Part shown: piece after piece, positions 32,601-55,656 of the stretch
How the letters are laid out: each line of letters begins with the position of its first letter
Position numbering within the stretch: position 1 is the first letter of the stretch
IMG/VR virus record: IMGVR_UViG_3300035698_016184
Coordinates: 1-63,301 of that record
DNA: 63,301 bases
Reading direction: 5' to 3' (one strand)
DNA from: a virus
The notes under the pieces: generated by a model
The model's input: the letters and a program-made list of their open reading frames with translations, nothing else
Databases searched by the model: none
Told to the model about the DNA's origin: nothing
Program-made: the position numbers and the translations under genes

Positions 32601-33648
32601 AGGGGTTGAGGTGTATCAAGAATCGCTGTACGAAGCAGTGCGGAAAGAATTTCGGGAGGTTGAGTCTGAACTTGGCCGACTTAATATACAGGCCATCAAG
32701 AAAGACCTCACCACTTTTGACAAGTACGATTGTGTCAAGAACGATGATTGTTGTATGTTAGATGCGCTCAACTCAAAGAAGAGCGAGTTAGCCCTTGCGC
32801 AAAATCAGTGGAACTTACTTGGTCCTAAACTTCAGGAACTAAAAAATGAAAAAGTTAAGTTGCTGGAAGCTAGGAATGCGACCGTGCGACTCGAAGAACT
32901 TGACGAAAGCGTAGACGAAGCTCTCTGCCAGATCAGAGCCTACGAAAAAGATCTGAAAGAATACAATGAAGCGATAAGCCAGTTAAGTAAAAATGCCGAC
33001 GTCCGTAATGAAGTGGCGTCGCTGAAGCAGTCGAGAGTAAAGAAGGAAACAGACCTCTTATCTGAGCGTAAAGACCTCTCCCGCTTGACTATGGCCTTGG
33101 GCTCATATTCAGAAAAAATTGATAGACTAAATAAAGACAAGAAGAAATATTATGATTTGAAATTCCGGTACGAGACGTTAGAGTACTATCTCAAGACAGT
33201 GTCAAAAACAGGTCTGCCGCAGATGATCGTGGGAAACAATCTAGAAATTATTAATGCAGAAATTTCTAAGATTCTAGAAACGAAAGCAGGGTTCGATATT
33301 TGGCTGGAAGCGTCAGGTCGGGAAATCAACGTGATGTTCCAAGAAGGAAATGAAAAGCCCGGCATAGTAGAGCTATGTTCAGGTGTAGAAAAAGCGATTG
33401 CCGCCATCGTGGTCCGTGCAGCGCTTCTTGGTGTCACTACGTTGCCAAAATCAAGCATATTAGTACTAGATGAAGCGTTCGCATCCTCAGATGCTGAATA
33501 TTCTGAAGTTATGAGAGAAATTTTAGAGCATTTAAAGACGTTATTTAGTTCGGTCATCATAATTACTCATGATGACATATTCAAAGATTATGTTGATCAC
33601 ATGGTGAATGTTGAGCGTGACCCAGAGGGGTTCTCTAGAATCGTATAA
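29635..33648 (+). CDS. Fused recombination nuclease-ATPase (gp47/SbcD plus gp46/SbcC) interrupted by an intein
   Basis: One ORF of 1337 codons encodes both halves of the Mre11-Rad50 complex. Phosphoesterase motifs: SDIQ (residues 8-10; the usual His of motif I is Gln), GDIAHS, GNHD (79-82), FHG and GDIH. The ATPase half begins near 690: Walker A GIFGKNRTGKSS (~717), coiled coil, a Cys cluster CVKNDDCC (~1030) in place of a standard CxxC zinc hook, signature ELCSGVEKA, and Walker B ILVLDEAF (~1275). The intein occupies residues 83-404; the spliced product would be 1015 aa, about the sum of gp47 and gp46. It would resect DNA ends for recombination-dependent replication. Confidence 0.85.
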   Translation: MLKVAHLSDIQIKNFSRHQEYRDSFELLYASLKEQNPDIIVIAGDIAHSKTKISPEFVQICSELFFNLAEIAQLHIAPGNHDCFTADHEVLTTAGWVRLDDMCSRPDLCKVATFNSNTKKIEFQTPSGKIVKKYRGNLLSLQGKDIDALVTPTHNFLYTFGAYKNENFLKKKAFELPLNASIPINGILPCYENDLFANLLGFSFADATFVLKNHKTGTARIQFHLKKERKILYLSNILKSLDYKFNIRTTKAGTSVICIYGALAKRVYSFFGGLRKIPDNIYEHEADFLRSFLDGYLNGDGSKRKGKENFWSFTNIDEDNIDKLVTICRLVGASSHKSSAEVYGNYENSKRQFSGNCNFHEDKLACTSAPLREDVSFDGLVYCLSVGNENLLIRRNNKIYVSGNCNLQNLSRLDALTPIVDSLKHPNIIYYLESGVFSYDKFDIVNFSCINEGVNWPQKCQPVSGNPSIGIFHGMVKGAVLQNGQIVEDCPYTLDEFLDVVDYLLMGDIHRMQVLGHEYRAAYCGSFPQQNFGEQTKKGYLMWHIDDSKKHEVDFIELENVCPFYTIKIPDSLELDKSMELKKNSRIRILSRQLTVFEKEILRNSVKKAFDPIELHFKDDANAHRQEALVDDKTTIEDLRDTAVQSRLMRNFLKEYDLPEKLLTSIERYNNKLNTSISKQEMLHRNVQYKILDMNWDNLFSYGENNTFDFNALRGSVGIFGKNRTGKSSLAVEILLYVLFNTNSKGVVKNDYLINRNKDQCSGTVRIQVGDLIYKITRKTILTIKSGKKSDNPVYQGKTSLDFTVTYPSGEVEDLNGEERGVTDNSIRKIFGSVEDFIATSVAPQGQLLNFLEKGSTERLKLIGRYFDLDAFDQKHKIAKAELKEMKSAFLLLEQKDFDAQVEELKVEEAATDRESTLLEKKVKELELERNLINDKIEELSSNISNVILPKLDPVKRATSIKEGKAYFVNKKNERNVAKSELDNSLKDLGVEVYQESLYEAVRKEFREVESELGRLNIQAIKKDLTTFDKYDCVKNDDCCMLDALNSKKSELALAQNQWNLLGPKLQELKNEKVKLLEARNATVRLEELDESVDEALCQIRAYEKDLKEYNEAISQLSKNADVRNEVASLKQSRVKKETDLLSERKDLSRLTMALGSYSEKIDRLNKDKKKYYDLKFRYETLEYYLKTVSKTGLPQMIVGNNLEIINAEISKILETKAGFDIWLEASGREINVMFQEGNEKPGIVELCSGVEKAIAAIVVRAALLGVTTLPKSSILVLDEAFASSDAEYSEVMREILEHLKTLFSSVIIITHDDIFKDYVDHMVNVERDPEGFSRIV
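29881..30846 (+). other. Intein with LAGLIDADG endonuclease in the SbcD part (322 aa)
   Basis: Inserted directly after the catalytic GNHD motif. Block A is CFTADHEVLTTAGWVRLDD (Cys1), block B is VTPTHNFLYTF, endonuclease motifs are LLGFSFADA (degenerate) and FLDGYLNGDG, and block F is YCLSVGNENLLIRRNN. The intein ends VSGN with Cys as the +1 extein residue (30847). The penultimate residue is Gly instead of the usual His. Extein junction after splicing: GNHD|CNLQN. Confidence 0.88.
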
Positions 33649-33650
33649 GA

Positions 33651-33875
33651 ATGTCAAAGAACCAAGGTATTTTGAATTTAGACTTCGAGGAACTTTGGAA
33701 TTCTTGGGCTGTTGATAAGGACGACGAAGACTATGATACTCCAGAAGAGCCTCATCGTCCATTAGTACAACTGAAGCCTGCGGTTATTAAGTGCGAGTGC
33801 GGTTCCGAAAAAACGTTTGGAAAAAACTCTCCGCATTCAAGTTGGTGTGCAAAAGCCAAGGAAAACGAAAAATGA
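33651..33875 (+). CDS. Small protein with Cys/His cluster, 74 aa
   Basis: Starts two bases after the nuclease stop. The C-terminal half contains KCECGSEKTFGKNSPHSSWC, a CxC...HxxxC arrangement that could bind zinc; the N-terminal half is acidic (DKDDEDYDTPEEP). No family is recognised. Its stop codon overlaps the next gene's ATG (ATGA). Confidence 0.65.
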   Translation: MSKNQGILNLDFEELWNSWAVDKDDEDYDTPEEPHRPLVQLKPAVIKCECGSEKTFGKNSPHSSWCAKAKENEK

Positions 33876-39094: not shown

Positions 39095-41905
39095 ATGTCT
39101 GAGAAAGGAATTAAAGCTTATTACAATGACCTGAAGCGGGTTTTTGCTGGCGGCCCTGTGGTTCGTCGTCAAGTTACAAATAAATTTCGAGCACCCGGCC
39201 AGCAGGGCGAACCTGTAGGTACAGCGAAGGCTTTCCTGAAAAACGTAAACGCTTCTTATGCGTCTACTATGGCGTCATATGGGCAATATAATCGCCTAGC
39301 GAGATACAGCGACTTCAACGAGATGGAGTGTTTACACCCGTCAACTTTGGTATGCACTATTGAGCACGGATGGAAGAAAATACAAGAACTCCACGAAATG
39401 TACCCAAGTAAAGATTCAACTTTTCATGTGTATTCTTATGACCACAAAAACAAGAAAATCGTCATTGACGAAGCCTTTCATGTTCGACCGACAAAAAAAG
39501 ACATGACTTACAAAGTAAGCTTTGACGACGGCGGCTTTGTCATTGCGAATTCTACTCACCCTTTCATGCTTAGAGACGGAACATATAGGCAAGTTAAAAA
39601 TTTGGTCGAAGGCGACGCTTTGATGCCTTTGTATAAGGCAAAATTTGGTTCGGAATATGTCCACGTAAATACGCTCAATGGAAAGGGCGAATCTAATCGT
39701 CGTGCATGGCAAAGAGAGCATACTTATATTTCTGAGCATTTTGCGAAAAGAAAACTGGACGGCGGGAAAGAAGTTGTTCACCATAAAAATTTTACTCCGG
39801 GGGACAACCGTCTAGACAATTTGCAGATTATGACAGCTAAAGCGCACAAGTCTTACCATGCAAAATTGAATAACACGCACAAATGGTCAGTTTACGCTAA
39901 ACATGTCCCGCCTAATTGGAAACATGCCGGCACGGATAACGCCGGCATCAAAAATTCACGGTACAGGTCAGACTTAACTTTTCAAAGTATCTGTAATGCA
40001 TTTACCCCCGGAAAAAAACTCAATGAAGTTTGTCGAGAGCTTCAATGTGGAGAAGCGCCCGTAAGAGAAAGAATAAAAAAAGAAGGGTACAAAAGTTGGA
40101 AAGATTTCTCTTCTTCGTACGCTAATCATAAAGTAGCGACAATCACGGAGTATGAAGAAACCTGGGTTTACGACTTGTCGACCAAAATTCACCATAATTT
40201 TGCGGTTACAGGCGAAGAGTCGTGGAATGAAAAAGACAACGGAGTCAAGATGCTTTCCGGCGCTGTTTTTGTTCATAATAGCATGGCGGAACTCGGCAGT
40301 GCCTTAGATATTTATGCAGACGAAGTGACATCTCAAGGCGAAGACGGCAAAGTTGTCAAAATAGAATCTGGGAACAGATACATCCGAAAAGGCCTAGAAG
40401 AACTTTTCTACGATACGCTGAATATAGAATTCGAAGCATGGAACTGGGTTCGAAACATGCTCAAATACGGAGACCAGTTTCTTTTAGTTGATCACCACAG
40501 AGACTATGGCGTCCTGAACCTATTATCATTACCGGTGAACGAAATCGAAAGAGAGGAAGGTTACGACCCTGACAACCCATTGGATTATCGTTATCGTTGG
40601 ATCACACAAGGAAACAAAATCCTAGAAAAATGGCAAGTTATCCACTTTAGAAATACAGGTAATGACAATTTCCTTCCGTACGGAGCTTCAATACTTGAAG
40701 TAGCACGCCGTGTGTGGCGCCAGCTCGTCCTCATGGAAGATGCTGTTATGGTTTATCGAATTGTCCGTTCGCCAGAACGACGAGTGTTCAAGATAGATGT
40801 AGGAAACATCGCCCCAAACGACGTCCCAGCCTTTATGGAAAAAGCTCGAACGCAACTCAAGCGTAATCAAATAGTTGATTCAAACTCAGGCCGGGTTGAT
40901 TTACGATACAACCCTCTCAGCACGGATGAAGACTACTTCATTCCAACAAGAGGAGAACACTCGTCGACAATTGAATCTTTACCAGGCGGCCAGTACACCG
41001 GCGATATTGAAGACCTGAAATATATTCAGAATAAACTATTTGCAGCACTAAAGATCCCAAAATCTTACCTCGGCTACGAAGAAGACGTTGGTGCAAAAGC
41101 GACCCTGTCACAACAAGACGTTCGATTTTCCCGTACGATTCAAAGAATCCAACGAGTATTTATCACAGAACTAAATAAGATCGCAGTTATCCATCTTTGG
41201 TCCATGGGCTATCGAGCTGATGACTTGGTTAATTTTGAAATTACCATGGCAAATCCGTCTTCGATAGCTGAACTTCAGCGTTTGGAATTAGTCCGTACAA
41301 AACTTGAGGTCGCCTCCGTAGTCCCTCAGAACGGCATCGTCGACAAACAGTGGGTTTACGAGTCTATCCTCAAAATACCAGTTGAAGATATTGAATCAAT
41401 TGAAGAAGGCCGCCGAAAAGATAGATTGCTAGATATGGAAATTGAAACAATGCAAGCACCAGTACAAATGCAGGCCGCCGCCGCTGGGGCAGGCACCGGT
41501 GTGGCTCCCGGAGTGGGAGCACCAACTGGAGCCGGCACAGGATTGCCACCGCCACCACAGCCTCTTGCTGCTGGCAGAGACCCCAACAAACAGGTTGCAG
41601 CGCCCAATGAGCTTATAAAGGTCAAGAAAGCCAAGAAAGATCCAATGCAACCTGACTTAAAAAACTACGCATTCAATACGAAAAAAACCGGCATGGATAT
41701 GAAACGTAATAGAAGCGAGTTGAGCAGAACGGTTACAGCTCCCTTCGGCGAATCTAAGCTTACCGAAACGGTTGTTGAGTCAAAAGAAGAGGAAATTTTT
41801 CAAAGACGTCGATCTTCTGTATATAAAATAGCCGAAGAACTAAGCCGTATGAGCGAGCGTCAAGAAGAAGAAGAAGCGGAAAGCAAAAAAATCGAAAATG
41901 ATTAA
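39095..41905 (+). CDS. 20: Portal vertex protein (gp20-like) interrupted by an intein
   Basis: Dodecameric connector through which DNA enters the head. After removal of residues 79-395 the protein is 619 aa (T4 gp20 is 524). Typical portal segments include MAELGSALDIYADEV, DPDNPLDYRYRWI, IPKSYLGYEEDVGAKATLS and DVRFSRTIQRIQRVF. The C-terminus carries an Ala/Gly/Pro-rich linker (about residues 790-835) and a charged tail beyond the usual length. AGGTAAAG precedes the ATG. It follows terminase by 16 bases. Confidence 0.9.
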   Translation: MSEKGIKAYYNDLKRVFAGGPVVRRQVTNKFRAPGQQGEPVGTAKAFLKNVNASYASTMASYGQYNRLARYSDFNEMECLHPSTLVCTIEHGWKKIQELHEMYPSKDSTFHVYSYDHKNKKIVIDEAFHVRPTKKDMTYKVSFDDGGFVIANSTHPFMLRDGTYRQVKNLVEGDALMPLYKAKFGSEYVHVNTLNGKGESNRRAWQREHTYISEHFAKRKLDGGKEVVHHKNFTPGDNRLDNLQIMTAKAHKSYHAKLNNTHKWSVYAKHVPPNWKHAGTDNAGIKNSRYRSDLTFQSICNAFTPGKKLNEVCRELQCGEAPVRERIKKEGYKSWKDFSSSYANHKVATITEYEETWVYDLSTKIHHNFAVTGEESWNEKDNGVKMLSGAVFVHNSMAELGSALDIYADEVTSQGEDGKVVKIESGNRYIRKGLEELFYDTLNIEFEAWNWVRNMLKYGDQFLLVDHHRDYGVLNLLSLPVNEIEREEGYDPDNPLDYRYRWITQGNKILEKWQVIHFRNTGNDNFLPYGASILEVARRVWRQLVLMEDAVMVYRIVRSPERRVFKIDVGNIAPNDVPAFMEKARTQLKRNQIVDSNSGRVDLRYNPLSTDEDYFIPTRGEHSSTIESLPGGQYTGDIEDLKYIQNKLFAALKIPKSYLGYEEDVGAKATLSQQDVRFSRTIQRIQRVFITELNKIAVIHLWSMGYRADDLVNFEITMANPSSIAELQRLELVRTKLEVASVVPQNGIVDKQWVYESILKIPVEDIESIEEGRRKDRLLDMEIETMQAPVQMQAAAAGAGTGVAPGVGAPTGAGTGLPPPPQPLAAGRDPNKQVAAPNELIKVKKAKKDPMQPDLKNYAFNTKKTGMDMKRNRSELSRTVTAPFGESKLTETVVESKEEEIFQRRRSSVYKIAEELSRMSERQEEEEAESKKIEND
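39329..40279 (+). other. Intein with HNH endonuclease in portal protein (317 aa)
   Basis: Block A begins CLHPSTLVCTIEHGWKKIQE, block B is NSTHPFMLRDGTY, and the HNH motif is EVVHHKNFTPGDNRLDNLQ, followed by HKSYH. Block F is WVYDLSTKIHHNFAV, ending VFVHN with Ser as +1 residue. It has the canonical His-Asn end. The extein junction is DFNEME|SMAELG. Its HNH nuclease differs from the two LAGLIDADG inteins nearby, so it was probably acquired independently. Confidence 0.9.
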
Positions 41906-43928: not shown

Positions 43929-44213
43929 ATGAAAACTAAAAAGAAATCTAACTTTCGAACTATTGCCGAAAGCCTAGCGTTTGACGGACTCAAAGAGTTC
44001 AATGTCGCTACCCCCAACCTTGATCATCGTAAGCTTAGCGTTGACGAAATCAAGACTATGATTCGAGAAGAGTTTGAGAAAGCTAAGAAGTCATCAGATA
44101 CGAAAAGTAAAGAGATCGAGCATGGCTGGGGCGCCGCCGATGTCGAAAATCAAGTTAAGTGGTCGAAGGTGCTTAAATTAAAAGAGTTTTTCAAAAAAGG
44201 TGGTGATGAATAA
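43929..44213 (+). CDS. Small head protein with capsid-targeting-like N-terminus, 94 aa
   Basis: N-terminus MKTKKKSNFRTIAESLAFDG contains T-I-A-E, the same I-A-E cleavage motif as T4 internal proteins (FIAE). The rest is helical and charged (EIKTMIREEFEKAKKSS). It lies immediately before the gp21-like protease, a prohead-core position. Probably packaged in or part of the prohead core and cleaved by the protease; inferred. Confidence 0.62.
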   Translation: MKTKKKSNFRTIAESLAFDGLKEFNVATPNLDHRKLSVDEIKTMIREEFEKAKKSSDTKSKEIEHGWGAADVENQVKWSKVLKLKEFFKKGGDE

Positions 44214-44215
44214 AG

Positions 44216-44812
44216 ATGGCTACGCTGTTAAGAGAGTTCGTTGCCTTAGAATACGATAAAAAGTTAATTAAGGAAGCGATAGGAAAAAAAGCACCGATCG
44301 TGGTTCCTGCTCTCTTGCAGCGTGCCAACGCTGCTAATCAAAATAAAAGAATTTACCCTCGACATATTTTAGAGAGGGAGATGGGAAACTACCAAAAAGC
44401 GGTCGACGAAAGTCGAGCCACGGGTGAGCTTGATCATCCGGACTCTTCTGTAGTTTCACTTGAAAACGTTTCGCACATCATCCGCACGTTAAGGTGGGAA
44501 GGCGACGAAGTCTGGGGTGATGTTGAAATCCTCAATACGCCAAAAGGAAAGATAGCTCAAAGCCTGCTAGAGTCAGGTGTCAAATTAGGCATATCTTCAA
44601 GAGGCGTAGGTGAGACCATGCAAGATGAAAATGGTCACGACGTTGTTGATGAGTCCTTCATGTTGATCGCCTTTGACCTGGTTAGCGAACCTTCAACTCA
44701 CGAAGCTTGGTTGATGAGCGAAGGTAAAGAAATTGATTTGGCGACTATAAAGAAGATGGTTCCAAAGGTTGATCGTATTAATAGAATTGCGAATGAAATT
44801 TTGAAAAGCTAA
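44216..44812 (+). CDS. 21: Prohead core protease (gp21-like)
   Basis: Serine protease of the U9/S77 herpes-protease-fold family. GELDHPD (about residues 74-80) carries the catalytic His, and KLGISSRGVG (about 123-132) the catalytic Ser with its conserved SxRG. Length 198 aa matches T4 gp21 (212 aa). It matures the prohead by cutting after L/I-x-E motifs and then itself; its own N-terminus contains VALE. Two bases separate it from the upstream gene. Confidence 0.88.
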   Translation: MATLLREFVALEYDKKLIKEAIGKKAPIVVPALLQRANAANQNKRIYPRHILEREMGNYQKAVDESRATGELDHPDSSVVSLENVSHIIRTLRWEGDEVWGDVEILNTPKGKIAQSLLESGVKLGISSRGVGETMQDENGHDVVDESFMLIAFDLVSEPSTHEAWLMSEGKEIDLATIKKMVPKVDRINRIANEILKS

Positions 44813-44832
44813 TTTAAGGAGGTTTGTTTCTA

Positions 44833-45354
44833 ATGACTTTATCGGCATCATATTATTACCCGACTATGAACAAGGCGGTTTTGCCTTTCCCTGGCGGAGT
44901 GACTCTTAAATCTGAAGCTGCTATAGTCACCAATACTGCAGGCCACCTCATACTGTCGTCGTCGGGAACCAGCTCCATCATTCGTTTGTCCGGAAACCTT
45001 CATACCGGCGGGAGTTCCGGTAACCAAGTAAATACAAACCGTCCAATTACGCTTGGCTCTAGTCAGCAAATTGGAGATGATCTTTATGGCGCATCTTACA
45101 TATCCTTTGATGCCGGCGGCGCAGATACGACGTTGCATGCGCAATCGAATGTTCGATTTTATGCGGGTAGCGCACAACTATATATAGACGGCAATGCTAA
45201 ACTTACGTCTCAAGGTAATCACCTTATTTTGTCGCCGACCCTCGGCGTGATTACGCTCTCTGCTTCTGTGTATATGCCAAACCTACCCACAGCAGACCCA
45301 GGTAATTCCGGGCAGTTATATGTGACAGCCGGCGCAATAATGATCTCAGCCTAA
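44833..45354 (+). CDS. Beta-rich structural protein, paralogue of the 45368 product
   Basis: ATG 44833 lies 10 bases after AAGGAGG; a TTG at 44824 is less likely. The sequence is a series of short beta repeats (GHLILSSSGTSSIIRLSGNL, NHLILSP) and ends with ASVYMPNLPTADPGNSGQLY, a typical phage fibre-tip or decoration C-terminus. It shares YYPTMNKAVLPFPGGV and the repeats with the next gene. Inserted between gp21 and gp22; head fibre or decoration is plausible. Confidence 0.62.
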   Translation: MTLSASYYYPTMNKAVLPFPGGVTLKSEAAIVTNTAGHLILSSSGTSSIIRLSGNLHTGGSSGNQVNTNRPITLGSSQQIGDDLYGASYISFDAGGADTTLHAQSNVRFYAGSAQLYIDGNAKLTSQGNHLILSPTLGVITLSASVYMPNLPTADPGNSGQLYVTAGAIMISA

Positions 45355-45367
45355 GGAGTAATGCTCG

Positions 45368-46177
45368 ATGAGTCTTTCAGGCCTGCATTACCCAGGGTTG
45401 CATAAAAGCCCGATACCTTTTCCGGGTGACGGAGTCCTTCGTTCCGAAGGCATGGCGTTGTACAACTCTGCAGGCCACTTGGTATTATCGTCTTCTGTCG
45501 GTTCAATTGTTAGACTATCTGGAAACCTACATACACCCGGAAGCACCGGCATTCAACCTGTACTTTCACGAAGTCTAGTTTTAGGAAGCGGTGATCAAAT
45601 CGGAGACGACCTCTTCACAGGGTCTTATATAGCATTTGGCAATTCGGGCGCCGACGCCGAGCTACACGGAGAATCGAACGTCAGCTTTCACGCCGGTACA
45701 GAGAACATTATACTGAGCAGTTCAGGTCGATTCTTCGCTTCGGGGAGCCATCTGATTTTGTCGTCTTCCGGTACAGGTTCAACTATAAGAATTTCCGGCA
45801 CATTACACTCGCTAAACAGCACAGGTAACAACCCTGACCCAACCAATCGAAGAATTGTGATGGGAGGAACAGACAGTATAGGCGATGATTTATACGCCGC
45901 CACCTACATCAGGTTTGGCGACGCCGCCGGCTCTAGGGTCACGGTTAGTGGAAATACTACCGCTCGAATTCAAGGTGGCGGTAGGTCTATAGACGTAAAC
46001 GCTAAAGCTTTAACTGCAACAGGCGGACATATGGTACTGACTTCGTCGCAAGGTATAATAACGATGTCGGCTTCTGTTTATATGGCCGCAATGCCAGCCA
46101 GCGACCCCGGCAACCCAGGCGAACTTTATTATGATACGATTGCCGGTTTCCCCGGGGTAGTTAGAGTGTCACTCTAA
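45368..46177 (+). CDS. Beta-rich structural protein, longer paralogue of the 44833 product
   Basis: AAGGAG precedes the ATG. Same build as the previous gene, with one additional internal repeat unit: HLVLSSS/HLILSSSG followed by RLSGNLH/RISGTLH, then a GDQIGDDLF/TDSIGDDLY turn. It ends ASVYMAAMPASDPGNPGELY. The gene pair arose by tandem duplication. Fibre or decoration role is inferred from the repeat style. Confidence 0.62.
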   Translation: MSLSGLHYPGLHKSPIPFPGDGVLRSEGMALYNSAGHLVLSSSVGSIVRLSGNLHTPGSTGIQPVLSRSLVLGSGDQIGDDLFTGSYIAFGNSGADAELHGESNVSFHAGTENIILSSSGRFFASGSHLILSSSGTGSTIRISGTLHSLNSTGNNPDPTNRRIVMGGTDSIGDDLYAATYIRFGDAAGSRVTVSGNTTARIQGGGRSIDVNAKALTATGGHMVLTSSQGIITMSASVYMAAMPASDPGNPGELYYDTIAGFPGVVRVSL

Positions 46178-46196
46178 AATTAATAAGGAAAAATTC

Positions 46197-46703
46197 ATGG
46201 CAGAGAATAAAATAGAACGGATAGTAAGGCATTATGTTAAAAAGTTTTTAACGGAAGCCTTTACCGATTTTGACAATATAGTTGAAAGGAAAGTTCAGGA
46301 ATCTTTAGATCGCCTGTCAATCTTATCGGAAGCCTCACAACCTTCACTTAGGATGCTTCACGAACCGGGAACGCCCCCGCCAGAACCCCAAGTGACTAAA
46401 GCAGATCGGAAGGCGTTACAATCTAAACTGAGAGAGTCGCTAGGGGTAAATGAAGACACCTGGCGTATGATATATGAAGACACAGCTGCCTCATCCAACC
46501 CTATACTGAGTGGCGACGACGACGAGGGTCCAGGCTCTGAACTTGTTTCAGAAAATCAACTTAGAGAGGCCGGATTATTTATGGATTTCTCGAAACACAT
46601 GGACGCTTTTGAAGAATCAGACAAAAAACGCCAACCAAGTCCAGCAGATGAGCAAGCGCACGCAGATTACATGGAAGCTTTGAGAAAAGTTAAAACAGCA
46701 TAA
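46197..46703 (+). CDS. Small head-region protein with L-x-E N-terminus, 168 aa
   Basis: AAGGA 7 bases before the ATG. The N-terminal helix IERIVRHYVKKFLTEAFTDF contains L-T-E, a possible prohead-protease site. The rest is acidic and disordered-looking (Pro/Glu/Asp-rich). Candidate internal capsid protein; no family is recognised. Confidence 0.58.
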   Translation: MAENKIERIVRHYVKKFLTEAFTDFDNIVERKVQESLDRLSILSEASQPSLRMLHEPGTPPPEPQVTKADRKALQSKLRESLGVNEDTWRMIYEDTAASSNPILSGDDDEGPGSELVSENQLREAGLFMDFSKHMDAFEESDKKRQPSPADEQAHADYMEALRKVKTA

Positions 46704-46704
46704 T

Positions 46705-47601
46705 ATGAATAAAGCATCACTTGTTAAAGCAGATTTATTGCGAAGAAAAATATTTGAGTTTTTTGCAAAGAATCCTAGAAAGATCACCGCCGTATTTAAG
46801 ATGGGCGAAGGCGCAAATAAGACTCATTGGAAAGTTCTCCGCAAGAACAGTTCGACATTCCAAGTTGTTGAGGTTGTTTCAAGAACTAATGAGTTTTTGA
46901 TCGAAGGCCCAGTAATGCCGCCGATAACGACGGAACCTGCCCCTCCCAATGGCGTTGAACCTCCACCACCACCGCCAGTCGAACCTCCTATCGCACAACC
47001 ACAGCCTGGTACCGAAGAGCCCCCGGCGGTTCAAACACAACAAACAGACATGCAAACACAAGACCCGTGGGATCCAGATAACCCCCAGGGCCAGTTCGCA
47101 ACTTTGGTCAACCAGGTCGGCCTTCAAAAAGCTATGCTTGCTATGCCTGATGATATGATACAGCAGCACTTCGGCATTACTAAATCTGCCCTCAAAGCAG
47201 GCGGCACAGTGCCCGTTGCGCAGCCTCTGGCTAACCCTGCGGTCCCACCAGCCGACGTGCAACTATCACACAAAGAGAACATCACGGAAGCCACAGAAGA
47301 CGACATGACAGGAATTAACGTCGAGCCTTCTGATTACCAACCGGCCACAGCATCGCCTAATGACACTCCGCCCCCGGAAGAAAAATACGTCCCTACGAAT
47401 GCCGAAGAGCTAGCTATAGTGAAGACACTGCAAGGTCAGACGATTAGTGACGTAGAGATAGAGTCAAACGAACGAGAATTCAAGGTAAAATTTGGATTAG
47501 TAACTACCGACTTTCCAGCCACGTTGGAAGTTCGCCGTGGAGGTAAGGTAATCTACGTCTTTAAAGGCCGTCGCTATACCCTACAAAAACAATGGAGCTA
47601 A
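46705..47601 (+). CDS. Proline-rich head-region protein, 298 aa
   Basis: An N-terminal basic globular part (residues ~1-70) and a C-terminal ~70-residue domain (EELAIVKTLQGQTISDVEIE to the end) flank a Pro/Gln/Thr-rich linker (about 72-150, with PPPPPPVEPP). It overlaps the next gene by 10 bases. No family is recognised. Long disordered linkers are common in internal or decoration proteins. Confidence 0.58.
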   Translation: MNKASLVKADLLRRKIFEFFAKNPRKITAVFKMGEGANKTHWKVLRKNSSTFQVVEVVSRTNEFLIEGPVMPPITTEPAPPNGVEPPPPPPVEPPIAQPQPGTEEPPAVQTQQTDMQTQDPWDPDNPQGQFATLVNQVGLQKAMLAMPDDMIQQHFGITKSALKAGGTVPVAQPLANPAVPPADVQLSHKENITEATEDDMTGINVEPSDYQPATASPNDTPPPEEKYVPTNAEELAIVKTLQGQTISDVEIESNEREFKVKFGLVTTDFPATLEVRRGGKVIYVFKGRRYTLQKQWS

Positions 47602-47891
47602 AAAGAATATTTAAAAACTTGTTATCGGAACAAGCAGGCCCAAATACGATGGAACTACCTGGGGATAACATGACAGTTTCGTTCTTCCCTTCGGAGAAAA
47701 AATTGTTGTTTTCGCCACAGGACCACACAGCCGTCACCTCAAAGCTTAGGACGTACGTACACATGATGAAACAAGAGTTCAAAGTGGACGACGTCCAGTT
47801 TATGCAGAACGGCACCTTTACGATAGAGTTTGATCCTCGTGAAGACTTTCAGAAGGTTATGAATTTCGTAGCCGAATTTGGAGCAATTTAA
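47592..47891 (+). CDS. Small protein with capsid-targeting-like N-terminus, 99 aa
   Basis: ATG overlaps the end of the previous gene. MELKRIFKNLLSEQAG contains L-S-E at residues 11-13, resembling T4 Alt (MELI...DE) and IP leader peptides. The body is beta/alpha, resembling the C-terminal domain of the 46705 product. Candidate internal head protein. Confidence 0.58.
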   Translation: MELKRIFKNLLSEQAGPNTMELPGDNMTVSFFPSEKKLLFSPQDHTAVTSKLRTYVHMMKQEFKVDDVQFMQNGTFTIEFDPREDFQKVMNFVAEFGAI

Positions 47892-47896
47892 ATTCT

Positions 47897-48742
47897 ATGC
47901 ACCCACTTGCCGAAAAGTTACTTCAGAACAGCGCTACTACAGACCTTGTAAAAAAGATGTCTCCGACATCATTAATGCGATCATTAGTTGCGATAGTTGA
48001 CTTACTACCAGCAGAAGCAGCCGAAGTGGTGCGTGACCTAAGGGGAGAAGGTATCGGAGTTACAGGACCTACGAAAGAAGTAGGCTCGTATCCGGTACCA
48101 GCGCTATTAAAAAAGAACCCGCAACCAGGTGAGATATCAGAACTAGGGATTCCTGCAGGTCAGAATTCAGGAAATGCCAAACACGATTTTAAGCGACATC
48201 ATTTCCCACCCGACCCCCGAGGCAAACCTGCTGAGTGGCCTTTTGACGCCGCCACCGTACAAGCGATCAACCCTCAAAATAAAGGTTCTCGTCGCCCACT
48301 GATGAACGGTGCAGAAGAAGAGTTTGAAACAAAACCGAGTATGAAAAAGCTTGTATTTAAAGGCCCTTTTGATACCGATCACCGTTTGCATCCTGATGGC
48401 AACGCTACAGGCGGCACAGGGTTGAACCAGAGAGCTTTCCACTCAAAAGACAACAACACGTCTTCATCAGGCAGGTCCTGGACCAAGCGTGGCTACCCTG
48501 GATGGTCAGCTGCGCCCAAAGATAAAACGTTTACTCCTCCACCTCCATCAATAAAGCGAAAGGTTAAAGCTGAGTTTCCGGAAGTGGAGCAAGAGTGCTC
48601 TGAAGAAGTAGAAGAACTTCCCGGAAATGAGATTCCTTGGGAGAAAGAAGCAGGAGTAGGTTCGTCAGTTCCTAGGTTTGTAGGCGGCACGAACCCTCCA
48701 CCAATAAGCAAGGCTGGCCATCGAAGCCAGGGGAAAAGATAA
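47897..48742 (+). CDS. Disordered head-region protein, 281 aa
   Basis: A short helical N-terminal region (LLQNSATTDLVKKMSPTSLM) is followed by a long Pro/Gly/Lys-rich sequence with little predicted structure. A cluster of acidic residues lies near the end (EVEQECSEEVEELPG). No family is recognised. Placed in the accessory block between protease and scaffold. Confidence 0.55.
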   Translation: MHPLAEKLLQNSATTDLVKKMSPTSLMRSLVAIVDLLPAEAAEVVRDLRGEGIGVTGPTKEVGSYPVPALLKKNPQPGEISELGIPAGQNSGNAKHDFKRHHFPPDPRGKPAEWPFDAATVQAINPQNKGSRRPLMNGAEEEFETKPSMKKLVFKGPFDTDHRLHPDGNATGGTGLNQRAFHSKDNNTSSSGRSWTKRGYPGWSAAPKDKTFTPPPPSIKRKVKAEFPEVEQECSEEVEELPGNEIPWEKEAGVGSSVPRFVGGTNPPPISKAGHRSQGKR

Positions 48743-48743
48743 C

Positions 48744-48890
48744 GTGAAAATTCAAAAACAAAAAGAAGTCGTACCAAATACTCCCAGAGACAAAGAGATG
48801 GCAGCGTTACTGAAGTTGCATCAAGCCCGGGAAAAATTAGAGTTAATCCTTAAATCAGTAGAAAAAGAAAACAGTGAGCGGCAAGGTTAG
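48744..48890 (+). CDS. Very small helical protein, 48 aa
   Basis: GTG 48744 has AGGGG about 10 bases upstream and opens a 48-codon frame (VKIQKQKEVVPNTPRDK, then a helical MAALLKLHQAREKLELILK). It ends at TAG 48888-48890, inside the start of the next gene (17-base overlap), and fills an otherwise empty 130-base gap. Coding nature is inferred from ribosome binding site, overlap pattern and amphipathic composition. Confidence 0.5.
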   Translation: MKIQKQKEVVPNTPRDKEMAALLKLHQAREKLELILKSVEKENSERQG

Positions 48891-49272
48891 TGAAGAAGTT
48901 TTAGTCCAAGTATTGAAAGCGACTAGAGCAACAGAAGAGATACTTCGCGAAATTTTAAAAGAAAGAGACGTTGAACAAGTAAAAGTCGCCAAGATAGAGG
49001 TCAAACTTCAGTCTGTGGAAGACGACCTTGTGGAGATGGTGCAAATCATTCGTGGCGACGGCCTTTCAGGGCTGCAAATGCAAGCGAATATACAGTGTAC
49101 TCGTCTTGCATTAGTCGAGGAAAAGCTGAAGGAAGAAAAAGATAAAGGTTCAAAGTTAAGCGTAGAGAAAATAAAAGGCCGTTGGTCACTCTTTGCGATT
49201 GTTGCATCAGGGCTCGTCGCTTTGGCTACTGCTATGATCACCGCCGCCATCGCATTACTAGGTAAAGGTTAA
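48874..49272 (+). CDS. Coiled-coil protein with C-terminal TM helices
   Basis: GTG 48874 start. Residues 1-95 are helical or coiled (charged heptads, VAKIEVKLQSVEDDLVEM), followed by a basic patch (KIKGRWS) and a hydrophobic C-terminus (LFAIVASGLVALATAMITAA) that ends at the stop. A tail-anchored topology fits. It could be a holin-like or membrane-tether protein. Next gene has the reverse layout. Confidence 0.6.
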   Translation: MSGKVSEEVLVQVLKATRATEEILREILKERDVEQVKVAKIEVKLQSVEDDLVEMVQIIRGDGLSGLQMQANIQCTRLALVEEKLKEEKDKGSKLSVEKIKGRWSLFAIVASGLVALATAMITAAIALLGKG

Positions 49273-49274
49273 TC

Positions 49275-49523
49275 ATGCAAATCAATTTTGACTTAAAGAC
49301 TATAGCGACTGTATTTGGGTTGTTAGTTGCGGTAACAGGCGGTATCGGCAGCTACTTTGTTATGAAGTCCGAAGTCTCTCTATTGAGGATGCAAGTAAGC
49401 AGTCACGCAACAGAGATTCAAGAACTTAGAATGAAATCGGTAAGCGACGGCTCGACACTTGAAGGCGTAAAAGAAGACGTCCAAGAGATCAAAGGTGACG
49501 TAAAGGAACTACTAAGAAAATGA
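49275..49523 (+). CDS. Small TM plus coiled-coil protein, 82 aa
   Basis: N-terminal TM helix (about residues 9-29, IATVFGLLVAVTGGIGSYFV) followed by a coiled coil (VSLLRMQVSSHATEIQELR). Size and layout resemble i-spanin-type or xhlA-like phage membrane proteins. It overlaps the secreted protein gene at 49520 by 4 bases (ATGA), so the three genes 48874-49882 look like a membrane module, perhaps lysis-related. Confidence 0.58.
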   Translation: MQINFDLKTIATVFGLLVAVTGGIGSYFVMKSEVSLLRMQVSSHATEIQELRMKSVSDGSTLEGVKEDVQEIKGDVKELLRK

Positions 49524-49882
49524 GAAATATATTTTTCATTTTGTGTTTTGCGGCCGCCGCTTTGTCAGGGTTCACGGATTTCAGCACTTCATCGCAGAGC
49601 TTACCTTTTTCAAGTTCACGCCCTTATTGGTATTGCAATCAACTCGGAAAAGTAAAGGGACGAACAACCCTAGCTCTTACATCGTCGTTTACCACCGAAC
49701 GTGAATTTTCCGTGGATGATTTTGAATCGGCAGCCTCATCTCAGATTAAAAACTTTGACCCCGCTTTTTCTGGCGTGTGTTTAAATTTCGAATCAAACAA
49801 CGATGCAGGGAAAGAAATAAGAAAACAAGTAGATATGAGCAAAAAGACTCTCGTGAGTGTAGTTTTTGTTAAGTTTCCTTAA
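49520..49882 (+). CDS. Secreted protein with signal peptide, 120 aa
   Basis: ATGA overlap with the previous gene. The N-terminal MRNIFFILCFAAAALSGFTD is a Sec signal peptide (probably cleaved near ALSG), without a lipobox Cys. Two Cys remain in the mature part, possibly disulfide-bonded (YWYCNQ and GVCLNF). No family is recognised. Partner of the membrane proteins upstream. Confidence 0.58.
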   Translation: MRNIFFILCFAAAALSGFTDFSTSSQSLPFSSSRPYWYCNQLGKVKGRTTLALTSSFTTEREFSVDDFESAASSQIKNFDPAFSGVCLNFESNNDAGKEIRKQVDMSKKTLVSVVFVKFP

Positions 49883-49944
49883 CACCCTGCACTATGTATT
49901 CATTGTAGTAGAAGCTTTTAAAAGCAAGGTTTTAAAATTAAGAT

Positions 49945-50286
49945 ATGAAAAGTGTTAAGTTAAGTTCGCTGCGAGGCTTCTTCAAAGAATCTTTCGCAAC
50001 CAAATTCGAGTCAGTAAATACCGCCAACCGTGGTGAAGCTTCTTCGGAAGACTATCATGACGAAGACGACACTCCTGGGGTGACTTATGAAAAGTTTGAT
50101 CCCGCCGAACTGGACAGCGACGAAGACGACAAGTCCCCCGGCGCAGACGCCGAGCTGTCAGAGACAAACCTATATTCGGACGCTTCTTCTCAGTCAGCAC
50201 CGGAATGCGAGCCTGTTGACGGTGAAGACGCTGAGAAGAACGAGTCAAAGCGATATTCGTTAAAAAAAGTTTTCAATGCGAATTAA
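49945..50286 (+). CDS. Acidic protein with capsid-targeting-like N-terminus, 113 aa
   Basis: N-terminus MKSVKLSSLRGFFKESFATKF is an amphipathic basic helix with F-K-E at residues 13-15; the rest is strongly acidic and Ser-rich (SEDYHDEDDTPG). Overlaps the next gene by 11 bases. Resembles a prohead-core or internal protein. No family is recognised. Confidence 0.55.
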   Translation: MKSVKLSSLRGFFKESFATKFESVNTANRGEASSEDYHDEDDTPGVTYEKFDPAELDSDEDDKSPGADAELSETNLYSDASSQSAPECEPVDGEDAEKNESKRYSLKKVFNAN

Positions 50287-50656
50287 GTTATCAAGATTGA
50301 AGGAAATGCTTCGAGAAGGATTTAAAGGTCTTCCCGACGACTCGATGAATGTAGAGGAGGCTCCCGATTTTTCCTTCTCTAGGGATGAGCTAAATGCGAT
50401 GTCTCCTGAAGACTTCGAGCGTCTCAAATCGAACCTTCCTCAAAACCCCTCCCACCCATCAACAGCTACAGTCCCGCCTATTACTCCGACCACTACTGGA
50501 ACCCCAGACTGGTCTGTCGGAGTTTGGGATCCCAATGCAACCGATCAAGATCGTACTGATGCTGCTGCCTCGATGGCTCAAAATGCACAACAAGATCTCG
50601 ATGCTCGTCCTCCTACGGATGACGTAACGGCAATCGGCAGAAAACACAGAATATAA
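50276..50656 (+). CDS. Small head-region protein with capsid-targeting-like N-terminus, 126 aa
   Basis: MRIKLSRLKEMLREGFKG is a basic amphipathic helix with M-L-R-E, a good L-x-E site. The remainder is Pro/Thr/Asp-rich and disordered. Starts inside the previous gene. Same leader style as the 47592, 49945 and 61040 products. Confidence 0.58.
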   Translation: MRIKLSRLKEMLREGFKGLPDDSMNVEEAPDFSFSRDELNAMSPEDFERLKSNLPQNPSHPSTATVPPITPTTTGTPDWSVGVWDPNATDQDRTDAAASMAQNAQQDLDARPPTDDVTAIGRKHRI

Positions 50657-50671
50657 ACACAGGAGCTCCTT

Positions 50672-50872
50672 TTGTCAGGAATAGCAGTCAACCTTCGCCC
50701 CGGCGAATCGCAAGAGAAATTACTTAAACGTTTTGTTAAGAGATGCAAGAAAGAAGATATTATTAAAGAGTATCTTGAAAAGACAGCTTTTTATAAGTCC
50801 AAAAAACAGCGGAGAAGAGAGAAACGCCGCAAGAACTTTTGGATTAGTCAGAAAAGTTGGTTAAAAGTATGA
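50672..50872 (+). CDS. rpsU: Ribosomal protein bS21 homologue
   Basis: The sequence follows the bS21 pattern: a beta-strand start with VNLRPGESQEKLLKRF, then KRCKKEDIIKEYLEKTAFY and a basic tail SKKQRRREKRRKN. Length 66 aa is typical (E. coli S21 is 71 aa). The TTG start at 50672 has AGGAG 6 bases upstream. bS21 is the most common ribosomal protein carried by phages; it sits by the 16S 3' end and could bias ribosomes toward phage mRNA initiation. Confidence 0.85.
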   Translation: MSGIAVNLRPGESQEKLLKRFVKRCKKEDIIKEYLEKTAFYKSKKQRRREKRRKNFWISQKSWLKV

Positions 50873-50963
50873 TTAAATTGCTTTTTAGTAATAACTCTAC
50901 ATATTTATCCTTGAAAACGCCCCTTTGGCGTCAATCTATTTTATCATAGGAGATAAAATTTTA

Positions 50964-52085
50964 ATGAAAAAGACTATCCTTGAAGAAGCCCTTGACGATG
51001 TTAAGCTTCTAGAGGAGGCAGCAATCAAGAACGCACGTAATGTTCTTGTCGAAGCTATCTCACCACAAATCAAAGAATTTGTGAATTCTTATGTCTCCGG
51101 CGGTGGAAACCTCAGCGAGATGCCCGAAGGTCTGGAATCTATTTCCCCTGAAGATCTTCAAAAACTATTATCTTTCCTTAAGATGCACGTCGATGGTGCA
51201 GGCGAAGATATGGGTGACGGCGAGCACGACGACATGAACCATGAACCCTCGGACGGCGCTCCGATGGGTGACAGCAATTTTGGCAATTACGATAGCGAGG
51301 AAGAAGATATGACTGCAGAAGAAGGTATGTACGAAAACAAAGACGAAGACGAGAAAGACGACGAGCTGGACGAGACCGTAAACATCGAAGAGGCTGACCT
51401 CCGACGTGCTTGGGCCGAGATCGTTCAAGAATCGACCGTTAGCGAAGGTGAAGTCCCTCACACTGAAACAAGTGCTGAATTTGATGATGCCGAGAACCCA
51501 AACAAGAACGCCGTCGGCGGACTTGGTGAGCCCGGCGCACCTGGCGAACGAGGCCTAGAGGACAAAGAAAAGGAAGAGATGTGGAAAGACCACGAAGCTC
51601 CTGGAAGTTCTGACTGGACCGTGAAGGAAGCTGCTTATAAGAAGCACCTTAGTTTCCTTCAAAGCAAAGTTAACAAACTAAATAACGAAAATAAGGGGCT
51701 TAATGCAGGCGTTCAAAAGTTGAAACGTAGCCTGACCGAAGTTAACCTCTTTAATTCGAAACTACTTTTTACCAACAAACTGTTACAAAAGACTGGCTTG
51801 ACCAACGAACAGCGTCTCAACGTAATTGAGACGTTTGACCAAGCGCAATCTATGCGTGAAGTTGAACTCGTTTACAAGTCTCTCAGCGAAAGTTTTAAAA
51901 TCGCTGGAGTGTTAAGTGAGTCAAAGCATCGTACTAGCAAGAAAGCAAAGTCATCTAGATTTGCGACCTCGGCCACAGCGAATATGCTGCGAGAGCGATC
52001 TGAGCGGGAAGAGCCTGCTGATGCACAAACGGAGCTTGCAGAGCACATGCAGCGACTAGCAGGCTTGAACACCCTTGTTGATTAA
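50964..52085 (+). CDS. 22: Prohead core scaffold protein (gp22-like)
   Basis: AGGAGAT precedes ATG 50964; the in-frame codons upstream lie in the leader. Scaffold features: highly acidic central region (about residues 75-150), C-terminal coiled coil (KLNNENKGLNAGVQKLKRS), and N-terminal helices with VLVEAI, a likely prohead-protease site. Located directly before the major capsid gene, as gp22 is in T4. At 373 aa it is longer than T4 gp22 (269 aa). Degraded to peptides during maturation, by analogy. Confidence 0.82.
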   Translation: MKKTILEEALDDVKLLEEAAIKNARNVLVEAISPQIKEFVNSYVSGGGNLSEMPEGLESISPEDLQKLLSFLKMHVDGAGEDMGDGEHDDMNHEPSDGAPMGDSNFGNYDSEEEDMTAEEGMYENKDEDEKDDELDETVNIEEADLRRAWAEIVQESTVSEGEVPHTETSAEFDDAENPNKNAVGGLGEPGAPGERGLEDKEKEEMWKDHEAPGSSDWTVKEAAYKKHLSFLQSKVNKLNNENKGLNAGVQKLKRSLTEVNLFNSKLLFTNKLLQKTGLTNEQRLNVIETFDQAQSMREVELVYKSLSESFKIAGVLSESKHRTSKKAKSSRFATSATANMLRERSEREEPADAQTELAEHMQRLAGLNTLVD

Positions 52086-52109: not shown

Positions 52110-53759
52110 ATGAATAAAGCTAAGTTTGACCTCGGAGCACTACAGGAAGGGATTAAGTCTCGTCATGTTGGCAAAGAGTCACAGAAAATCACGGAAAAAT
52201 GGGATAAGACAGGCCTCCTAAAAGGACTGAGAGATCGCCAAGGCAATTATGCCAAAAGTAATATGGCACGTTTGATGGAAAATCAGGCCGCAGAACTCCT
52301 TAAGGAGTCTTCGGAGACTGGCGACATTAAAGGTTTTCAGAATATCGCATTCCCAATCGTACGACGTGTCTTCGGAGGCTTGATCGCTAACGAGCTCGTC
52401 TCAGTTCAGCCGATGAGTCTTCCTGCGGGACTACTCTTCTACTTGGACTATACTTTTGGTAGCGCCAATAAGGGCGGTAATAGCTCTACAGATTGGACCG
52501 CCGGAGGTTCGCTCTTTGGTGATCAAACCTCACCTGGTTCGCAGAACCTAGGTACTGGTGGTCATTACTACCTCAACAGCTCTTACTCAAATCGTGAGTT
52601 GACTGGAACCCTTGAAGTGCAGGCCTCGGGCGCTGTTACTGATTGGGCTGACGTTAATTATGATTTCGAGCTTTCGGGCGCACTTGAATCTAGCACCTTG
52701 CGATTTGTTGATGTTGCATTTACTGCTTCGAGCATTGCGTTGTCTTCGCTTGACGAGACCAATTACACCAACTTCACCCTCTCCGGCTCCGACGCTGGTT
52801 GGGCTCAAGTAAAGGGTCACTATAAGCGACATAACACTTTCAATACGAGCACTGGCGTTGTACGTATGTACCTTTCGGCCACCGCCGATATGGATCATAC
52901 CGTTGGCGTTACTGGTTCGTATGTAACAAAAGCCGGCCTTACTGTTGATGATTCAGGCACCGTTTTGAATCCTGCTTTCGAGTCGGACTTCACTAATGAT
53001 GTGATCCCTGAGATTGACATTAAGGTGAGTTCGGTTTCGGTCACCGCCGGAACCCGCAAGCTGAAAGCAAAGTGGACTCCTGAGCTTGCTCAAGATCTTA
53101 ATGCTTATCACAACCTTGATGCTGAAGTAGAGTTGACTCAGATCCTTTCAGAGCAAATTGCTCTTGATATCGATCGAGAGATTCTCAGCCAGCTTCTCAC
53201 AGGTGCCACTGGTGCGACCATGTTCTGGTCACGTATCCCTGGTGACTTCGTGAATAAGCTAACTGGCGCTGCAGTTTCTGGTGCATCGTTCACCGGTACT
53301 GTTCGAGAGTGGTACGAGACTCTTGTTGAGACCTGCATTGACGTGGCGAATACCATTCACCGCAAGACGCTTCGAGGCGCAGCTAACTTCATGGTCGTAA
53401 GTCCTGACGTAGCTACCATTCTTGAAAGCACTGTGTTGTACAAGCCTCAGCTTTCACTTGACCCCAGCGAGACCCAGTTCTCTCTTGGTGTTGAAAAGAT
53501 CGGTGCCTTGAATAACCGCTTTGTAGTTTACAAAGATCCTTACTTCCCACGCAATCAGATTCTGGTTGGGTATAAGGGCGGTAGTTTCTTGGAGACTGGA
53601 TTTGTGTATGCCCCTTACGTTCCTTTGATCGTAACGCCTACCATCTTTGCTCCTGAAGATTTCACTCCTCGCAAGGGCGTGATGACTCGGTATGCTAAGA
53701 AAATGGTCCGTTCGGATTTCTACGGTAAGGTTGTCATCCAGCACATGGACGTTATCTAG
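52110..53759 (+). CDS. 23: Major capsid protein (gp23-like)
   Basis: HK97-fold capsid subunit of T4 type. Conserved segments include FPIVRRVFGGLIANELVSVQ, LKAKWTPELAQDLNAYHNLD, DIDREILSQL and RGAANFMVVSPDVA. LLKE at residues 63-66 lies where T4 gp23 is cut (after Glu65), fitting a gp21-type processing site. AGGAGA precedes the ATG, and a strong terminator follows. At 549 aa it is close to T4 gp23 (521 aa). Confidence 0.92.
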   Translation: MNKAKFDLGALQEGIKSRHVGKESQKITEKWDKTGLLKGLRDRQGNYAKSNMARLMENQAAELLKESSETGDIKGFQNIAFPIVRRVFGGLIANELVSVQPMSLPAGLLFYLDYTFGSANKGGNSSTDWTAGGSLFGDQTSPGSQNLGTGGHYYLNSSYSNRELTGTLEVQASGAVTDWADVNYDFELSGALESSTLRFVDVAFTASSIALSSLDETNYTNFTLSGSDAGWAQVKGHYKRHNTFNTSTGVVRMYLSATADMDHTVGVTGSYVTKAGLTVDDSGTVLNPAFESDFTNDVIPEIDIKVSSVSVTAGTRKLKAKWTPELAQDLNAYHNLDAEVELTQILSEQIALDIDREILSQLLTGATGATMFWSRIPGDFVNKLTGAAVSGASFTGTVREWYETLVETCIDVANTIHRKTLRGAANFMVVSPDVATILESTVLYKPQLSLDPSETQFSLGVEKIGALNNRFVVYKDPYFPRNQILVGYKGGSFLETGFVYAPYVPLIVTPTIFAPEDFTPRKGVMTRYAKKMVRSDFYGKVVIQHMDVI

Positions 53760-55110: not shown

Positions 55111-55656
55111 GTGAACGAATTAACCTCAATATATAAAGTAATAGAGTGGAGCAAGAGAGACAACGACGACCACTCTGGAGGTGGGTTTTTTGTAGTCCTT
55201 CCTGAAAAATTAGGAAAGAAGTACCCAAAGAAAGACAACGACGACTCTCTACCACACATTACAGTACTTTACATTGATGATGTCGCAAAGAAGCAAAAGA
55301 AGAAAGGCAAGTACATTGAAGCTATCGAAAAGGTCTGTAAGGAAACAAAACCCTTCAAAGCAAGCTTGGGGAAGAGGAAGACGCTGATCAACCAAGACGG
55401 AGACACGGTTCATTACAGCTCCATTGTCTCTTCCTCGCTAAAGAAGCTTAACGAAAGCATCAAAAAAGAGCTAGACAAGGCTGGGCTTACGTATTCCAAG
55501 CGATTCAAAGAGTTTAAGCCGCACGTTACAATCGAGTACGTTAAAGAGGGTGACGCCCCGAAGTATAAAAATAAAGACTTTAAGGGTTCTTGGGACGTTA
55601 GTTATATATGGCTCTGGGGGTTTGGTGAACCTAGTATATTTTTCTTAGGTGGGTAA
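55111..55656 (+). CDS. 2H phosphoesterase (LigT / Acb1-like fold)
   Basis: Two H-x-T motifs, LPHITVLYI (His 49) and KPHVTIEYV (His 138), spaced ~90 residues apart define the 2H phosphoesterase superfamily, which includes 2',3'-cyclic phosphodiesterases, LigT and T4 Acb1, an anti-CBASS enzyme that cuts cyclic oligonucleotides. The N-terminal GGGFFVVLPEKLG also fits. GTG start 8 bases after the previous stop. Targets could be a host defence messenger, tRNA ends or ADP-ribose compounds. An insertion within the connector/tail operon makes it look like an accessory gene. Confidence 0.78.
   Translation: MNELTSIYKVIEWSKRDNDDHSGGGFFVVLPEKLGKKYPKKDNDDSLPHITVLYIDDVAKKQKKKGKYIEAIEKVCKETKPFKASLGKRKTLINQDGDTVHYSSIVSSSLKKLNESIKKELDKAGLTYSKRFKEFKPHVTIEYVKEGDAPKYKNKDFKGSWDVSYIWLWGFGEPSIFFLGG

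Follow-up and report, generated by a model that had tools for sequence, protein, structure and literature searches.

Phage T4 carries about four injected cargo proteins, and the known ones protect the phage or reprogram the host. T4 internal proteins (IPs) IPI to IPIII and Alt each start with a capsid-targeting sequence (CTS), a short basic and hydrophobic N-terminal propeptide that ends in h-x-E (h, hydrophobic residue) before a small residue and stands in front of unrelated bodies. The first 10 residues of IPIII are enough to direct packaging, and gp21 cleaves the propeptide (PMC9026906); gp21 is a protease of the S77 family. The IPs of T-even phages are diverse defence proteins in which the CTS alone is conserved (PMC3012670). 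In giant phages of the phiKZ/SPN3US type, an S80 protease strips N-terminal propeptides from many head proteins, which are ejected into the host (PMC5694885). The Far-T4 phages comprise RM378, immuto and uncultivated relatives, and the paper devoted to them makes no mention of prohead, scaffold, internal proteins or protease (PMC4360716). We analyzed virus contig IMGVR_UViG_3300035698_016184 (63,301 bases; the window), which by gp23 similarity falls in the same clade and whose small head-region proteins had been proposed to bear CTS-like leaders and to be injected as effectors. In its Far-T4 relatives we found a leader signature that occurs in excess, precedes non-homologous bodies, co-occurs with an S77 protease, agrees with the cleavage site of gp23 and is present on an ADP-ribosyltransferase. 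We consider it probable that these features reflect a scaled-up T4-type capsid-targeting system, in which leader proteins would bind the scaffold, be packaged and cleaved, and be injected.

Several traits link the Far-T4 leader to the CTS of T4, namely, a short N-terminal basic and hydrophobic segment with the same type of ending, unrelated bodies, a T4-type protease and scaffold, a gp23 with L-x-E/[AS] (a slash marks a known or putative cut), and an ADP-ribosyltransferase among the cargo of a relative. In contrast with T4, the Far-T4 proteins have no sequence homology to the IPs, they start with a longer leader helix (MKITxxQLRxIIxEE) that often has a further L-x-E site, and as many as 30-40 genes carry it in one genome, rather than about four. 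Because the IPs of T-even phages keep only their CTS in front of diverse bodies, the Far-T4 system would be CTS-like in its working. As in phiKZ and SPN3US, many head proteins would have propeptides cut by the prohead protease, but the propeptides of those phages are mostly longer than 100 residues, whereas the Far-T4 leader is modular and comprises 14-25 residues.

Far-T4 relatives share a leader on unrelated proteins

No DNA-level relative of the window was found in the phage collection. The sequence of its gp23-like major capsid protein (52110..53759, +; PF07068, 1e-77; phrog_138, 5.8e-75; conserved cleavage site) places the virus in the Far-T4 neighbourhood, the nearest named isolates being Microcystis phage Mel-JY01 (37.9% identity), Flavobacterium phage immuto (37.6%) and Rhodothermus phage RM378 (34.7%). 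The set of relatives consisted of 80 IMG/VR loci whose gp23 is ~44-51% identical to that of the window.

At locus L005, gp23 is followed by a row of five dissimilar genes, each of which starts with MKIT or MKIS and then ..Q(L/I)..(I/V)I.E. A degenerate codon search for MKITxxQLxxIIxE in IMG/VR gave at least 120 matches. In total, 262 distinct leader proteins were collected, and the 245 complete ones (MKITxxQLRxIIxEE) fall into 192 unrelated body clusters. When 104 leader proteins were aligned, only MKITKxQLxxIIxEExxxxxxE was conserved, and mean column identity was 5%. The expectation that related phages would have variable bodies behind a conserved leader was therefore borne out in the relatives but not in the window, whose genes share no leader.

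We defined a strict leader as h..hh.E within 23 residues, with at least two K or R and a net positive charge. As this pattern was devised after the original prediction had been read, the relatives and control genomes constitute the fair test. Near gp23 in the relatives, 61 strict leaders were found against 3.7 expected (907 genes), and five whole Far-T4 genomes contained 40, 31, 32, 14 and 15 against 3.3, 2.3, 2.1, 1.3 and 1.1 expected, respectively. The counts in the controls were 5 versus 3.4 for T4 and 3 versus 2.1 for a random 170-kb contig without S77. The reversed pattern was never encountered. In three genomes, leaders of this kind are present on 31-40 of 281-384 genes, i.e., up to about a tenth.

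A motif-free grouping of similar N-termini whose bodies are non-homologous yielded one leader family per Far-T4 genome, with 41, 26 and 34 genes in three genomes and, in the remaining two, 8 and 9 genes. Applied to T4, the same procedure recovered ipII/ipIII (MKTYQEFIAE) and a mob-gene group, and in an S77-less control virus it detected no leader, only an unrelated small family. A tblastn search with the 20-residue leader gave no match among isolated phages, the query being too short for a database that large, and no description of the Far-T4 leader was found in the literature searched, which was limited in range. Together, the sequences suggest that the relatives possess a large arsenal of head-packed proteins that is apparently undescribed.

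Other repeated N-termini were observed as well. MKLIMENWRKFLxE, which looks nearer to the T4 sequence MKTYQEFIAE, begins ~20 proteins; tandem genes with this leader are present at L385:10638-13061 (G025, 150-153 kb) and other loci. A run of proteins with the leader MKNLRxYIRxIL[SIT]E, whose bodies of 190-320 aa mostly belong to no family, is present at L359 and L360 (G020, 248-263 kb). At least 13 small proteins of G024 (L388-L397) start with MKVGDLVR; these are unrelated and SH3/KOW-like in look. In immuto, the N-terminus MKKQILSEQFRRMQKLAGIITES (L344:780-1244) is possibly a further leader type of Flavobacterium phages, and proteins with MKKSQIVKAVQEVLEE and MGKVNKAYIENIIKEILSE occur in the same phage.

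The leader is associated with the prohead protease and resembles its putative sites

The genome of the window contains a T4-type gp20-gp22-gp23 head module with an S77 prohead protease. The order is portal (39095), two unknown genes, a small gene (43929), the protease (44216), two fibre-like genes, small genes (46197-50872), scaffold (50964) and gp23 (52110). The gp21-like protease announced by the original prediction (44216..44812, +) was confirmed by matches to Peptidase_S77 (Pfam, 1.5e-25) and to phrog_207, head maturation protease (3.1e-49), and by the alignment of its catalytic H, S and D with those of T4 gp21. No match to this protein was found in bacterial genomes. Near its N-terminus is a conserved candidate autocleavage site, IKE/A, and h-x-E/[AS] is kept in gp21 of the clade.

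The LLKE motif pointed out at residue 66 of gp23 was likewise supported: LKE66/S (residues 64-66) aligns with FLTE/A of T4, VSE/A of immuto and ISE/A of Mel-JY01. In a set of 83 sequences, 80 have L at P3 and 82 have E at P1, and the most common residues at P1' are A (36 sequences) and S (28). The window gp23 also has an N-terminal LQE/G at residues 11-14, and gp23 of the clade starts with a near-invariant LTE/G. The gp22-like scaffold (50964..52085, +), which has a homologue in 71 of the 80 relatives' loci, harbors the candidate sites ILEE/A (residue 8) and VLVE/A (residue 30), with E30 present in 23 and A9 in all of 26 sequences. Given these conserved sites in gp23, scaffold and gp21, the protease of the clade likely prefers L-x-E before a small residue.

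In the relatives, the leader is often followed by LxE/[ASG]. The frequency of [LI]xE[ASG] per position is 0.022 at residues 17-28 and 0.0023 at residues 40-110, a ~10-fold enrichment as expected if a second, gp23-like cut site lay at the end of the helix.

Among leader-bearing contigs, an S77 protease is encoded by 14 of 14 that reach 150 kb and by 13 of 26 with 60-150 kb (27/40 of at least 60 kb), compared with 1 of 36 random contigs, which are mostly shorter, so that part of this contrast reflects length and lineage. The 13 leader contigs without S77 have no gp23, and only one has a tail sheath; most of them are therefore probably fragments devoid of the structural module. The leader is also shared by a family of head genes. 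Family A5 consists of conserved proteins of 64-90 aa that adjoin gp21 in the relatives and start with KLTxxLLKRIIxEE, and its N-terminus aligns with the consensus of the cargo leaders (E 1e-5). In genome G027, the A5 member beside gp21 clusters by its N-terminus with the cargo.

The window carries four leader-bearing small genes

The peptides on which the original prediction was built are all present at the positions given. The loose motif underlying that list ([LIV]xE whose E lies within residues 8-19) is found in 16 of the 66 genes of the window, against 14.0 +/- 3.0 expected from internal stretches of the same proteins, and hence shows no excess over chance. The claim that many small proteins have a basic amphipathic leader ending in L/I-x-E held only for the strict pattern, which is present in four genes (46197, 47592, 49945 and 50276) versus 0.4 expected from internal windows or 0.6 after shuffling (Poisson P, 0.0008-0.003). 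All four are located between protease and scaffold, in one 4-kb head interval. Three of the leaders end in [LI]-x-E; that of 49945, assigned the same ending earlier, has F-K-E. The genes at 33872 and 61040, also listed as leader genes, have the loose motif only and are inseparable from chance. By sequence, the window thus carries four leader-bearing small genes, up to three of which are candidate passengers.

The 94-aa protein of 43929..44213 (+) matches family A5 (hhalign, E 3.1e-5) over residues 34-87. Its conserved helix, KLSVDEIKTMIREE, is internal (residues 34-48) and preceded by an N-terminal extension, MKTKKKSNFRTIAE followed by S. The TIAES quoted as the end of a leader therefore belongs to this extension, and 43929 probably codes for a prohead core protein. 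The 168-aa protein of 46197..46703 (+) has a strict leader with FLTE/A and then ILSE/A. Its gene lies where the relatives have a conserved gene after gp21 (MKxSxxxLKxLVKECLVEILxEG), and in alignment A2 it is 15-20% identical to these proteins with the leader glutamates retained, although profile comparison alone is not significant. As a homologue of conserved head-cluster genes and a positional match to one, respectively, 43929 and, probably, 46197 look more like proteins of the head core or of head assembly than like injected effectors, the role proposed for them. No homology was detected between A5 and T4 gp67 or between family A3 and gp68, and Pfam and PHROG comparisons linked none of the small proteins of the window to T4 IPs, Alt, gp67 or gp68.

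The remaining three strict-leader genes have no counterpart in the 80 related loci and no Pfam or PHROG family. They encode proteins of 99 aa (47592..47891, +; NLLSE/Q), 113 aa (49945..50286, +; acidic; GFFKE/S) and 126 aa (50276..50656, +; EMLRE/G). The start of the last gene overlaps the end of 49945, and its product is not an A5 member. We regard the three as lineage-specific passengers that are possibly injected, with 47592 as the best cargo candidate in the window. A single-sequence AlphaFold2 model of 47592 (mean predicted local distance difference test [pLDDT], 69) predicts a helix at residues 3-12 followed by a compact alpha/beta body (b-b-b-a-b-b-a). A fold search with this model returned nothing at E<0.001, and no close relative of 47592 was found in IMG/VR.

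Putative cargo of the relatives includes enzymes

Most leader genes of the relatives lie outside the head cluster. Behind the leader MKANSARKLRHLVRRIIVES, L355:14903-15757 codes for an ADP-ribosyltransferase of the Alt/ModA type (phrog_832, 2.9e-8), in which R, S and E-x-E align with those of T4 ModA and ModB. An AlphaFold model of this protein had a pLDDT of 36 and was discarded. The injected Alt of T4 has a leader, as this enzyme does, whereas T4 ModA and ModB have none, and homologues of the enzyme in Enterobacteria phages likewise have no such leader. Further cargo with a recognizable family includes two AAA_33/zeta-type kinases and a protein with a PAP2 domain. A PADLOC search of 104 cargo proteins gave no match.

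A model for the leader and its alternatives

In the model that we favor, the basic amphipathic helix at the N-terminus, which ends in h-x-E, would attach to the scaffold core while the head assembles, and the gp21-like protease would remove it there, as with the CTS of T4 internal proteins. In the window, 43929 and, by its position, 46197 would be conserved components of the prohead core, and 47592, 49945 and 50276 would be lineage-specific passengers, possibly injected. In the relatives, copies of the leader would have spread to tens of genes in each genome; the bodies are unrelated and include enzymes, and the majority of the leader proteins would probably be packaged and ejected together with the DNA. 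More tentatively, and with somewhat less than even confidence, we propose that in Far-T4 phages a leader that mimics how a conserved head-core protein begins serves as an exchangeable tag for roughly one gene in ten, such that each virion can load and inject tens of proteins, among them ADP-ribosyltransferases, kinases and lipid phosphatase-like enzymes; the form found in the window would be reduced or diverged.

A number of observations weigh against this model. About 90% of the 104 cargo proteins have no Pfam match. P1' after the first leader E is mostly E, unlike the A or S of gp23, so the first site may not be the cut site, and a clear second site is found in only part of the leaders. The association with S77 is confounded with lineage. 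For the window, the post hoc framing of the strict pattern counts against us, the canonical MKIT leader is absent, and the four leaders are dissimilar to one another, N-terminal clustering of the window genes giving no cluster. The starts of 47592, 49945 and 50276 have no clear Shine-Dalgarno sequence, and an alternative start of 47592 downstream, at 47649, would delete its leader.

These points bear on the alternatives to different extents. The leader genes of the window might all code for structural prohead core proteins like gp67 and gp68, degraded in maturation with nothing injected, which we judge a real but less than even prospect. Their location between gp21 and gp22, where the core genes of T4 lie, would fit, as would the membership of 43929 in a conserved small head-cluster family, the positional alignment of 46197 and the very acidic character of 49945, reminiscent of T4 gp67. 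However, 47592, 49945 and 50276 lack counterparts in the 80 loci of the relatives, the body of 47592 is predicted to be folded, A5 and A3 match neither gp67 nor gp68, and the leader genes of the relatives, enzymes included, mostly lie outside the head cluster. It is unlikely that the pattern in the window arose by chance and that the relatives' system is absent from it. The loose motif at chance level, the mutual dissimilarity of the four leaders, the missing canonical leader and the post hoc pattern all speak for this view, but it has to contend with four strict leaders against 0.4 expected, all within a single head interval, and with the ability of the same pattern to separate relatives from control genomes.

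Amphipathic basic helices serve many roles, and the leader genes are dispersed over the genomes of the relatives; the leader could thus be another targeting signal, for tail or baseplate, host membrane or replication compartment, unrelated to the prohead. We consider this quite improbable, as the same N-terminal signature is found on conserved genes beside gp21, the h-x-E ending agrees with the gp23 cleavage site of the clade, and S77 co-occurs. Finally, the repeated 5' ends might represent a nucleic-acid element, such as a translation signal or a recombination cassette, with the peptide incidental. Within single genomes, the conserved leader residues have a codon identity of 0.53-0.62, above the 0.40 expected from codon usage, and therefore the leaders share ancestry or recombine. 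Yet synonymous codons differ widely while the peptide stays constant, and the hydrophobic spacing and the E are maintained across lineages with different codons, making this explanation very improbable.

Overall, the core idea of the original prediction is partly supported: it is right in kind, with its strongest support in the relatives. Should the leader be a CTS, it would in one step place hundreds of aquatic phage protein families that lack annotation inside the virion and at the very start of infection, the stage at which factors for counter-defence and takeover are expected. It would also supply a sequence criterion by which such effectors could be recognized in uncultured phages, as well as a ready-made tag for loading proteins into heads.

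Other genes of the window

Two repeat-rich fibre-like genes without family match (44833-46177) separate the prohead protease from the small head genes. Both the terminase large subunit (36088-39078; Intein_splicing, 3.8e-11; LAGLIDADG) and the portal protein (39095-41905; Intein_splicing, 4e-10; HNH) contain an intein. The 1337-aa protein of 29635-33648 has an SbcD-like phosphoesterase N-terminal part and an SMC/SbcC-like C-terminal part and resembles a fusion of T4 gp47 and gp46. Directly behind the head module, 55111-55656 codes for a 2H phosphoesterase (2_5_RNA_ligase2, 1.4e-13; the match to Acb1 is weak), possibly an enzyme of RNA repair or one directed against the cyclic oligonucleotide-based antiphage signaling system (CBASS).

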